Shown: piece by piece, positions 4,252-51,483 of the stretch
Layout: each line of letters opens with the position of its first letter
How positions within the stretch are numbered: position 1 is the first letter of the stretch
NCBI GenBank assembly: GCA_021399445.1
Contig: JAJTUQ010000002.1
Location: 1,054,001-1,118,000 of the forward strand
Length of the DNA stretch: 64,000 nucleotides
Direction: 5' to 3'
DNA from: Xylogone sp. PMI_703
Lineage: Eukaryota; Ascomycota; Leotiomycetes
Translations under genes and position numbers: made by a program
The notes under the pieces: generated by a model
What the model saw: only the letters and a program-made list of their open reading frames with translations
The model's database searches: none
Told to the model about the DNA's origin: nothing

Positions 4252-4626
4252 TTTTCAGAATTCAACCCTATCAGACCGTATCAGTTCCAGTGTTCTAAAT
4301 AAATACTGCTACTCGATATTATTACTGTTGAACGGAACAATAAAAGGCATATGCAAACGGTCTCTCAGTGATGATATTGTAGAAGGAAGAATCGAAATAA
4401 GAGATGACACCTGAATACTTCGTACTCAGCATATAAATAAGAAAAACCTGCCCAGATTTCGTAAACTACGTAGGGATGAGTAGATATCAAGTAATTATTC
4501 TCCAACTGGATCTCCTTTCAAGCCGAGTATGGTATCATGAGCGAAAGTCCACGCCAAGGAAGTATCTCGAAAAAGGGGAAATATTGTGGCCCTCGACCTA
4601 GCGACCCTCTGCTTTCCCAACAGTTC

Positions 4627-4650
4627 TATATAGGCTCAAATAAGAAAGCA
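4627..4650 (+). promoter_or_regulatory. TATA box and AATAAG element of RNA unit A
   Basis: TATATA at 4627-4632 is followed by AATAAG at 4639. The same 12-nt offset is found in units B and C. By spacing, transcription would start near 4657. Confidence 0.5.
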
Positions 4651-4656
4651 CCTCAT

Positions 4657-4835
4657 AACACAGAGCGGCGTCATTATGGTATAATGTAATGGTCAGGACA
4701 AGCTCGTGTTCACAGGAGGGAAGGAATAAGTCTAATGGGTGAAGTGAATACTGACATTAGTAGAGATGTAGGCGACAGCTCGGCGGATCAGCTGTGGAAG
4801 TCCGAACTCTTTTGTCACCCAGATCTTTCTTTTTT
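4657..4835 (+). ncRNA. Candidate structured non-coding RNA, unit A of three
   Basis: The shared blocks in order are: an A-box-like TGGTATAATG at 4677; GGAGGGAA at 4715; a hairpin CTAATG/CATTAG (4732-4737 with 4755-4760); GAGATGTAGG at 4763; a hairpin ACAGCT/AGCTGT (4775-4780 with 4790-4795); GAACTCTTTTGTCA at 4804-4817; and a six-T run at 4830-4835. The same order recurs near 17.2 kb and 51.4 kb with different stem sequences that still pair. TATA at about -30, an A-box at about +20 and a T run resemble an SNR6-type Pol III gene. The ends are estimates from TATA spacing and the T run. A SINE-like repeat is the main alternative. No known RNA family was recognised. Confidence 0.6.
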
Positions 4836-16712: not shown

Positions 16713-17068
16713 ACGATGCTTTATGGCACGAAGTATTACCCATCCAGAATGGATTCTATCTGTATAAACATTATTCTTGGGTTAAACAGCATGGAAAAGG
16801 CGTTTTTAAAGATTTCCCACCTCCGAACCATACGTTACTAAAATGTACGAATGCTTCCGAGGTCTAGAGAATACAATTACGGTACAAAATAACATGTGCG
16901 CGTATATTGTCATGTGTTTTCACTATGATCGATGCAAAGAGATTGACCGGAGTTGTTGAATCTTATATAGTCTAGGATCCTTGACATGGCCTTTCAGTGA
17001 GATTACAAGGCTCATCCCGCAATGGGAACCCCCCGGGCTCACCTTTGCTAGCAAAGCCATTTTTGTCC
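16713..17068. other. 3' flank of mL59, no gene seen
   Basis: 356 bp containing the expected 3' UTR of mL59 and the upstream flank of RNA unit B. Open frames here are short and unrecognised. Confidence 0.5.
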
Positions 17069-17092
17069 TATATAAACCTAAATAAGCAACAT
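17069..17092 (+). promoter_or_regulatory. TATA box and AATAAGCAA element of RNA unit B
   Basis: TATATAAA begins at 17069 and AATAAGCAA at 17081, the same 12-nt offset as in units A and C. The predicted start is near 17099. Confidence 0.5.
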
Positions 17093-17098
17093 CCTCGC

Positions 17099-17253
17099 AC
17101 CACAACAGGCATCTGTTATGGTACAATGTAAGAGGAGGAATGGGAATAAAACTCAACACCAAATCTGCAAGTGCAGATGTCAAGGGAGATGTAGGCATAT
17201 GTATGTAATGCATACATAGTGCGCGAACTCTTTTGTCACTTGAGCTGTTTTTT
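17099..17253 (+). ncRNA. Candidate structured non-coding RNA, unit B of three
   Basis: The same block order as unit A: an A-box-like TGGTACAATG at 17119; GGAGGAA at 17134; a hairpin ATCTGCA/TGCAGAT (17163-17169 with 17172-17178); GAGATGTAGG at 17186; a hairpin TATGTATG/CATACATA (17198-17205 with 17211-17218); GAACTCTTTTGTCA at 17225-17238; and a six-T run at 17248-17253. It is shorter than units A and C because the segment between the A-box and GGAGGAA is reduced. It lies between mL59 and MND1, same strand as both. The ends are inferred from promoter spacing and the T run. Confidence 0.6.
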
Positions 17254-47841: not shown

Positions 47842-48384
47842 AGGAGGCACTCGTCTTCGTTTCTTCTTATACCCCCCTTTTCTCTTTCCTCTTCACATAC
47901 ATAATATCTAAGTATCGAAGACTCTCCTCACGGAGATCTTTCATCATCATTTTTGGACTTCGAGCATGATAGATGGGGCGTTTTGTTAGGACGAAGGACT
48001 TCGTTTCCTTCTTGGCATTTTCTAGGGCATAGCGGTGGATTTTAGATTTTGGAAGGAGCATAATTAACCATTGATAGAGGTAGAATGAGTCGCATGTGTG
48101 AAGATACACATACTAGCATGAACGGATTCCCTTTGCTGATCATTACGATGGTCGGCATGATACAAGGGTATCTGATGGAGTAACGAAGAATGAAATGATT
48201 TGCAAGTAATGTCTTAAGTCTTCTTGTTCTATGTTGGCATACTTTTATTCGTGATGACCTTGACAAAGTGTATCCATACTTTATGTCCAAATATATATCC
48301 AAACCACATGGTATCATTCTAGCGTCTCCTTGATCCAAAAACACCAAAACTCCAATTCCAGTACCACTTAATAGAGTATTCCTG
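47842..48384. other. Convergent 3' flanks
   Basis: 543 bp between the IZH3-like gene and the STK19-family gene, which converge. Expected to hold both 3' UTRs. No gene seen. Confidence 0.6.
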
Positions 48385-50868: not shown

Positions 50869-51279
50869 GAGGTGACTATTAGAGTGTTTTAGAGCATAGA
50901 TCAGCTAATTGAAAGAATGGAATAGAGTAGATCGGGCATTATTTCGCCAGCGAAATATGTCATGTTGACGATGTTCTGGTTTATATATGTCGCTGAATAA
51001 TTAGACATATATTCCATAAGCATTTCTGTAGAACCATCGTTACATCTTTCCATGGATATCACACGAGTCTTGTTGACTTCTTTCACGCTTAACTTTTATT
51101 TCTACGATATTCGCTCGAAAAGGAACACATTCCTCTCAAATGAAAAGCCGAAGAAGAAGATGAAAGCAGGCCAGTAGTAACAATGACCTGGATAGTTGCT
51201 ATTTAATCACTTTGATATACGTCCTTCTCTTAGCATCTTGCTTGTAGTAGGTTAGCGTCACTATGGACATGAGGTATTG
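50869..51279. other. 3' flank of the histidine phosphatase gene
   Basis: 411 bp of mostly AT-rich sequence leading to RNA unit C. No gene seen. Confidence 0.5.
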
Positions 51280-51304
51280 TATATAACCCCGAATAAGCAA
51301 GCAC
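51280..51304 (+). promoter_or_regulatory. TATA box and AATAAGCAAGCAC element of RNA unit C
   Basis: TATATAA begins at 51280 and AATAAGCAAGCAC at 51292, again a 12-nt offset. The predicted start is near 51310. Confidence 0.5.
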
Positions 51305-51309
51305 TCTAC

Positions 51310-51483
51310 CAAGAACAGTAAAAAGTGCCGTTGTGGCAGAACGTCAGGTCAAATTGCTGTTCCAAGAGCAAGGAGGGAATCAAGCCTAGCCGCCTTGATG
51401 CGACTAGGAGAGATGTAAGGCCTACAGCTGGGAAACTGGCGTAGGGCAAGAACTCTTTTGTCATCCGTGTCATACTTATTTTT
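51310..51483 (+). ncRNA. Candidate structured non-coding RNA, unit C of three
   Basis: The blocks are: an A-box-like TGGCAGAACG at 51334; GGAGGGAA at 51372; a hairpin CCTAG/CTAGG (51385-51389 with 51404-51408); GAGATGTAAGG at 51410; a hairpin CCTAC/GTAGG (51421-51425 with 51441-51445); GAACTCTTTTGTCA at 51450-51463; and a five-T run at 51479-51483. It lies between the convergent phosphatase and RAD60-like genes. The stems share no sequence with those of units A and B but occupy the same positions between the constant blocks. Confidence 0.6.

Follow-up and report, generated by a model that had tools for sequence, protein, structure and literature searches.

A dispersed family of putative RNA polymerase III genes for a structured RNA in Xylogone sp. 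PMI_703

tRNA gene families consist of many genes built on one scaffold, alike within subfamilies and different between them, with an internal A box. The units described here, which are dispersed through the genome of the leotiomycete Xylogone sp. PMI_703, share this organization but lack the B box and the cloverleaf of tRNA genes. They also resemble the dispersed 5S rRNA genes of filamentous ascomycetes, being scattered single genes with an upstream TATA-like box and a T-run. Unlike 5S genes, the units fall into subfamilies that differ by ~40% on average and carry CCNAAATAAG after the TATA box; the 5S genes of eight loci are not matched by our covariance models of the family (R1 and R2, defined below), and over the units scanned no Rfam family attains its curated score. 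The distance from TATA box to A box in the units (~50–57 nt) resembles that in the yeast SNR6 gene. Type 3 (U6-like) promoters of RNA polymerase III (Pol III) have a TATA box near −30 and a PSE at −50 to −60 (PMC7279448). The units are like these promoters in having a TATA box and an upstream element at about PSE range, but they retain an A box, and their upstream element is PSE-like in position only, with SNAPc or a true PSE unsupported. The U6 gene of this genome, unlike the units, has no AAATAAG as read by eye.

Short interspersed elements offer a different comparison. The AfuSINEs of Aspergillus fumigatus are tRNA- or 5S-related, and AfuSINE2 combines Pol III promoter features with target-site duplications (PMC5063351). 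Eg-R1 of Blumeria is reported to have neither A nor B box and to be made by Pol II (PMC6022598). The units are short and dispersed, as are these fungal SINEs (AfuSINE, and Eg-R1 and Egh24 of Blumeria), but have an upstream TATA box, no B box, and no clear duplications. We recognized no published family as this one among the open-licence papers listed, which were screened largely by title and the opening of the abstract. The best reading of the units is a large new family of structured Pol III RNA genes, with several subfamilies on one scaffold.

The window, a 64,000-nucleotide stretch of contig JAJTUQ010000002.1, contains three units on the + strand. A preliminary description had placed them near 4.7, 17.2, and 51.4 kb with shared blocks in a common order, and our reading of the sequence agrees: all three are present there, their blocks can be aligned in the same order, and the 14-nucleotide 3' block GAACTCTTTTGTCA is identical among them (4804–4817, 17225–17238, and 51450–51463). 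None overlaps an ORF of at least 250 amino acids, the length class compared. One protein encoded in the window has its named relatives in Halenospora, Cudoniella, Drepanopeziza, and Amylocarpus (78–80% identity; 85% for the closest relative, which carries no name), as would be expected of a leotiomycete. Beyond the blocks described earlier, each unit has a CTAGC/TAGCG-like element (near 4598, 17048, and 51253) and a set of helices, named P1 to P5. The features are listed below with scores from R1, a covariance model built from nine copies (eight of subfamily C and one of F), and R2, a model built from 64 units.

4598..4606, + strand: unit 1 upstream element CTAGCGACC, read in the sequence, ~28 nt ahead of the TATA block
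4626..4644, + strand: unit 1 promoter block, with CTATATA at 4626–4632 and AAATAAG at 4638–4644
4655..4817, + strand: unit 1 predicted RNA (R1, 44.4 bits, E 1.7e-8; R2, 93.1 bits over 4653–4817)
4657..4710, + strand: unit 1 P1 (4657–4666 with 4702–4710) enclosing P2, with the A box in the P2 loop
4677..4686, + strand: unit 1 A box TGGTATAATG, 51 nt after the C of CTATATA
4732..4760, + strand: unit 1 hairpin P3, CTAATG...CATTAG, with two-sided change at 9 of 9 pairs in both alignments
4763..4809, + strand: unit 1 3' domain, GAG-AUGUA-P4-GAA-CUC, with P5 closing P4 (from pattern counts and P5 exchange)
4804..4817, + strand: unit 1 3' block GAACTCTTTTGTCA (from window and genome pattern searches)
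4830..4835, + strand: unit 1 T6 run, candidate Pol III terminator (from T-run statistics)
17048..17086, + strand: unit 2 CTAGC (17048), CTATATA (17068–17074), and AAATAAG (17080–17086), read in the sequence
17107..17238, + strand: unit 2 predicted RNA (R1, 29 bits, E 1.1e-4; R2, 55.7 bits, E 3.6e-11)
17119..17128, + strand: unit 2 A box TGGTACAATG, 51 nt after the C of CTATATA
17248..17253, + strand: unit 2 T6 run, candidate terminator, read in the sequence
51253..51297, + strand: unit 3 TAGCG (51253), GTATATA (51279–51285), and GAATAAG (51291–51297), read in the sequence
51310..51463, + strand: unit 3 predicted RNA with P1–P5 (R1, 168.8 bits, being an R1 seed; R2, 130 bits)
51334..51343, + strand: unit 3 A box TGGCAGAACG, 55 nt after the G of GTATATA
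51479..51483, + strand: unit 3 T5 run, candidate terminator, read in the sequence

The start of the unit 1 RNA was placed ~28 nt past the TATA block and at the onset of conservation in the subfamily B profile. P1 of unit 1 is also present in its minimum-energy fold. The predicted unit 2 RNA is a short form without the 3' strand of P1, which is also missing from a few other units; GAGATGTA is located at 17186–17193 in unit 2 and at 51410–51417 in unit 3. A scan of the window with R2, whose training set contains all three window units, returned these units at E 2.4e-28, 8.2e-20, and 3.6e-11, with the next match (at 48261) having an E of 2.1.

Within the window alone, the 14-mer with up to three mismatches occurs at chance level (5 matches, 7.76 expected), and the evidence for a family beyond chance is therefore the comparison of genome-wide counts with controls. 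In the 50.1-Mb genome (25 contigs), GAACTCTTTTGTCA occurs 64 times and its reversed pattern not at all. With one mismatch allowed, there are 142 occurrences as compared to 19 for the control. Two further patterns are similarly enriched: GAGATGTA-N20-50-GAACTC (126 matches; control 6) and CTATATANNCCNAAATAAG with at most one mismatch (112 matches; control 4). The 64 occurrences divide into 36 forward and 28 reverse, so the shared + strand in the window reflects no rule.

R1 matches 63 of the 64 14-mer places, seeds included, as well as one further unit beside L027. Locus L045 is probably a chance 14-mer rather than a unit of the family (R1 E 0.14; R2 E 0.029) and was left out of the distance, flank, conservation, promoter, B-box, A-run, and direct-repeat analyses; in one analysis, additional deviant units were set aside too. 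Among 63 units, GGAG occurs in 61, GAGAYGTA in 59, and GTCAGGWCRA in 41. On 64 further loci, R1 yielded 48 distinct matches at E ≤0.01 (50 rows, minus one at E 0.083 and one duplicate place). These included all 31 loci chosen by GAGATGTA...GAACTC plus a family-like hairpin and 17 of 29 loci chosen by promoter; four U6 loci gave no new match, only one unit already counted. The 12 promoter-chosen loci without an R1 match include some broken copies (L110, L112, L115, and L117, by eye), some other sequences, and two loci (L119 and L124) that are matched by R2. One additional unit matched by R1 adjoins a 5S gene.

In total, at least 145 places were tallied by hand. This tally was typed from the matches listed, includes 45 places judged family-like by eye, and extends to broken copies and to places of the distant subfamily X2 that have no model test, so that not all of it is model-tested; R1 matches 113 of the places, the nine seeds included (64 from the 14-mer set, 48 from the further loci, and one beside the 5S gene). 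As the tally is a lower bound, the true number of places is greater, perhaps 150–180 by our estimate. The earlier suggestion of a possibly large family, which the absence of both further copies and transcripts would have undone, has thus been borne out as to copies. The family pattern had no match in viral contigs and one in prokaryote genomes. This single match lies inside a bacterial RecQ-like helicase ORF and is taken as chance, despite an R2 score of 18.7 bits (E 0.0099); scores of ~20 bits are consequently weak evidence for motif-picked places, and the X2 copy L124 (21.1 bits under R2) is borderline.

Promoter, A-box, and T-run statistics were compiled for 93 of 94 units. Promoter scores of at least 13 out of 16 were found in 87 of the 93, versus 0.7% of 1932 random stretches from the same loci. 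The A box has all six of its conserved positions in 61/93 units, every one of them 50–57 nt after the start of the TATA block, and at least five of six in 86/93. A run of at least five T follows the 3' block within 61 nt in 87/93 units, versus 7.5% of random stretches. Of the 77 units with enough upstream sequence, 49 have CTAGC, TAGCG, or CTAGT in the 75 nt preceding TATA, as compared to 11.6% of the 1932 random stretches, and 58 of 87 occurrences of this element are spaced 23–38 nt from the TATA block. The B box GWTCRANNC was found in 0/63 units in the 130 nt before the 3' block and in 0/63 in the next 130 nt; it occurs in 1/63 in the 130 nt beyond and in 1/63 in each of two control stretches. 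With a TATA box, an A box, a T-run, and no canonical B box, the units look like small Pol III genes. TATA-like boxes occur at about the same position upstream of the genome's U6 gene and of most of the eight 5S genes read by eye, which fits Pol III; AAATAAG was not seen by eye beside U6 or the eight 5S genes. The GTCA that follows the TTTT of the 3' block is strongly conserved, and a simple terminator does not account for this. Either the RNA would continue to the T-run and retain GTCA, or GTCA would aid termination.

Promoters of the same style are seen elsewhere in the genome. Three ~330-bp stretches on contig C12 (L120, L121, and L122) belong to a separate RNA-like family. Their promoter is similar (CTATATA..CC.AATTAAG), and they contain inverted repeats, a T-run, and TGGTTTAATGG, which is like an A box; they have no R1 or R2 match, and Rfam gives only a sub-threshold mir-5697 match on L120. 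At L104 (C19:3927720-3928060), a same-style promoter precedes unrelated sequence with a long T-run and no Rfam match at E ≤1. In L099, divergent promoters ~140 bp apart (L099:116-176 and L099:374-528) lead one to a full unit and the other to a weak partial match. By eye, the U6 gene L060 (C20:2705914-2706024) is apparently interrupted by at least one intron, and L061 and L062 resemble U6 copies that have diverged or been rearranged.

The structure in R1 was taken from the plan shared by the folds of chosen subfamily members: P1 surrounds the A-box hairpin P2 and is followed by P3 and then by P5, an internal loop, and P4. When 64 units were aligned to R1, 90.5% of cells were paired and two-sided change was observed in 31 of 38 pairs (240 cells), versus means of 78.8%, 21.2 pairs, and 69.3 cells in shuffles of this alignment. 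Sliding the partners by 1–3 columns reduced pairing to 26–60%. The 48 matches not used for R1, one of which is a weak partial match, gave 89.4% paired cells and two-sided change in 34 of 38 pairs (229 cells). None of 500 shuffles reached any of five pairing measures in either alignment, nor did any slid version; both alignments were fitted to R1 and hence lean towards the model. The five helices of the predicted ~150–170-nt RNA are supported by two-sided changes across copies, in keeping with the preliminary description of the units as apparently structured. The copies are paralogues of one genome, so that part of the covariation may be due to descent, and relatedness can lift copies above shuffles even where there is no structure. 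Single-sequence folding of the three window units is unremarkable (z −0.06, −1.80, and −1.74) and shows no structure on its own; the structural claim accordingly rests on covariation.

P5, which closes the 3' domain, is invariant in the 14-mer set by selection and fixed by choice in the 31 loci picked by GAGATGTA...GAACTC, and it was therefore probed with separate genome patterns. Only GAG/CTC (126 matches; control 6) clearly exceeds its control, as compared to AAG/CTT (41; 28), AAG/CTC (17; 14), and GAG/CTT (13; 19). By eye, 6 of the 41 AAG/CTT places listed carry the subfamily G hairpin, and, judged from the hairpin between the strands, one of 17 AAG/CTC and one of 13 GAG/CTT places are family-like. 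Of four X2 copies read, L119 and L123 have AAG/CTT in P5; one P5 pair is broken in L124 and one in L102. In two lineages, then, A-U has taken the place of G-C as the outer P5 pair, GAG/CUC in this helix becoming AAG/CUU, and intermediates are few. The most constant unpaired parts of the RNA are the AUGUA/GAA loop and the 3' block, which makes them the likeliest protein contacts. This loop may resemble a loop-E (bulged-G) motif.

The units are diverse in sequence, with a mean pairwise distance of ~0.40 over 63 units and at least 17 clusters at 30% distance. Nine subfamilies were told apart by eye, A to H and the distant X2. A genome pattern for X2 finds 14 places (control 0), and four of the X2 copies are matched by R2, with E values between 3e-6 and 3e-3. 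Conservation was profiled in chosen subfamily members. In subfamily A (17 units), column identity is ~0.2–0.45 upstream, mostly 0.88–1.0 in the TATA block, 0.5–1.0 in AAATAAG, and low in the spacer; over the predicted RNA as far as GTCA it is mostly 0.8–1.0, with 0.6 in the loop of P3, and soon afterwards it falls to ~0.3. Conservation is wider in subfamily B (14 units), extending from before CTAGCGACC to past the T-run. By eye, subfamily G (L015, L016, L032, and L090) has an ~80-nt insert in the P3 loop with CCTTGGCCCAGTGGTT, like the 5' part of a tRNA.

For the 45 most similar pairs, cores are 96–99% identical and flanks are mostly near the random level of ~0.75, a high baseline since the measure ignores gaps. 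Some of these pairs exceed the flank background near the unit (L021/L022 and L007/L030 in the first 100 nt). In most of 697 core-spanning pairwise alignments, homology is confined to the interval from about −240 to about +77 relative to the 3' block (limits given by the 5th and 95th percentiles), and near-identical subfamily G copies have nothing clear in common upstream of the TATA block or far past the 3' block. The alternative raised at the outset, that the units are parts of a longer transposable element, is not favoured: homology stops near the unit for most pairs, with exceptions such as L020/L055 and L044/L050, which are among the pairs sharing 400–750 nt at 75–83%. Uniform cores in differing flanks resemble dispersed Pol III genes, and selection, gene conversion, or mobility of a short unit can each produce this pattern. 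Short repeats escape RIP, which would fit a short unit. Two loci, L015 (second unit) and L033, have direct repeats of 10 and 8 nt, respectively, that resemble target-site duplications of the RNA part alone; a third case of at least 8 nt is probably spurious.

The units were also compared with known RNAs. Against Rfam 15 at gathering score, the window and 20 loci gave only two neighbouring 5S genes. At E ≤1 for 20 other loci (40 loci in all) and E ≤10 for unit 1, no family was found at its curated score; sub-threshold matches were mir-5697 on L120, mir-9193 on L101, and bxd_4, a CRISPR repeat, and FMR1-AS1 around unit 1. As to a tRNA origin, ARAGORN found no tRNA in the window or in 59 loci (apparently without an intron search). 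For a Y RNA, the Ro/TROVE domain PF05731 had no match in a six-frame translation of the genome, in which an intron-split domain could escape. H/ACA and C/D boxes were not seen by eye in the consensus blocks. A protein-coding repeat is not indicated: the longest ATG frame has a median of 25 amino acids (maximum 67), with 37 (maximum 64) on the antisense strand.

The main and serious rival to a family of RNA genes is a SINE-like selfish element, which would spread when a LINE reverse-transcribes its Pol III transcripts and the copies are inserted, the fold being kept for copying and not for a need of the cell. We consider this unlikely, though it would account for dispersed subfamilies with near-identical cores and mostly unrelated flanks, for the broken copies seen by eye, and for the tRNA-like insert in subfamily G. 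Among 90 units there is also a weak excess of direct repeats of at least 8 nt between the spacer before the start and the sequence after the T-run (3/90, 0.6 expected; 5/90, 1.2 expected, with a wider spacer window), but this signal was sought post hoc and one of the three repeats belongs to the consensus of its subfamily. Direct repeats flanking the whole unit are at background. TATA and AAATAAG precede the inferred start, so that retroposition of the RNA would not copy them, yet promoter scores of 13/16 or better are found in nearly all units (87/93). Since the 63 units found via the 3' probe all have promoter scores of 10–16, no 5'-truncated copy occurs among them. A-runs are few: in the 100 nt that follow the 3' block, A6 occurs in 7/63 units and T6 in 53/63. 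There is also no B box.

Two other explanations fit poorly. The units might act as DNA, either as a protein-bound site (e.g., a TFIIIC-type chromatin site) or as a Pol II promoter element that has spread. Blocks conserved at the DNA level would agree with this, as would the proximity of 4 of 28 5S genes to a unit within 2 kb (L128, L020, C1:7058477, and C12:2604027; simulated mean 0.34, with 10 of 20000 simulations as high), a post hoc comparison using hand-tallied unit positions and guessed lengths for two small contigs. However, two-sided change in 31 to 34 of 38 pairs and a T-run at the end are not expected of a DNA element, and we regard it as very improbable. Just as improbable is a known fungal RNA (snRNA, snoRNA, SRP, RNase P/MRP, 5S, or tRNA derivative) that has diverged beyond the reach of its model. 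An A box and a dispersed layout are held in common with 5S genes, and nothing more direct speaks for it. At least 28 5S genes were scored in the genome, and the eight read by eye have different flanks. Against this explanation, R1 and R2 match neither the 5S genes of eight loci nor the U6 genes, the matches at L128 and L062 being separate adjacent units, and Rfam gives no match to such families over the units scanned, consistent with the preliminary description, which did not recognize the family among snRNA, snoRNA, SRP, RNase P/MRP, or 5S RNAs.

We favour as probable the reading that each unit is a self-contained Pol III gene for a structured non-coding RNA of ~150–170 nt. At the level of sequence the case is strong in three respects, namely the size of the family, its covariation, and its promoter layout, and the sequence also shows where conservation ends; transcription, the polymerase, the RNA ends, protein binding, and a role are what we infer from these. 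In such a gene, the TATA box near −28 would position TFIIIB and the A box near +21 to +28 would position TFIIIC, with an upstream element often near −51 to −67 and no canonical B box. Pol III would initiate at the first strand of P1 and stop either within the 3' block, at its TTTT, or slightly further on, at the T-run. In the 5' domain of the RNA, P1 would surround hairpin P2, the loop of which contains the A box, and GTCAGGTCAA would come next; hairpin P3 would follow this domain; in the 3' domain, P5 (GAG/CUC) and the AUGUA/GAA internal loop would close hairpin P4. A protein may bind the near-invariant internal loop and 3' block, the RNA serving as the scaffold of an RNP. Subfamilies would be kept alike by purifying selection, gene conversion, or both, as in dispersed 5S and tRNA families. 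The variable hairpins keep pairing and not sequence, which makes one fixed base-pairing target across the family unlikely; base-pairing with a target within one subfamily is possible. More tentatively, and here we lean slightly to the other side, the units may represent an undescribed class of abundant structural RNA organized like tRNA genes, with nine or more uniform subfamilies on one scaffold, each having its own hairpins and numerous dispersed Pol III genes. The common protein-binding part would then comprise the AUGUA/GAA loop and the GAACUCUUUUGUCA block, the variable hairpins would set the target of each subfamily, and at least one further RNA-like family would have the same promoter style.

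If the units are instead SINE-like, they would be of an unusual kind that brings its upstream promoter along and retains a covarying fold. If the RNAs are made, at least 145 gene-like places in this genome would be devoted to an RNA absent from Rfam, a number on the order of a tRNA gene set. They would provide a new RNP to study and a source for unannotated small-RNA reads, and their combination of a TATA box and an A box without a B box would widen the range of promoters known in filamentous fungi.
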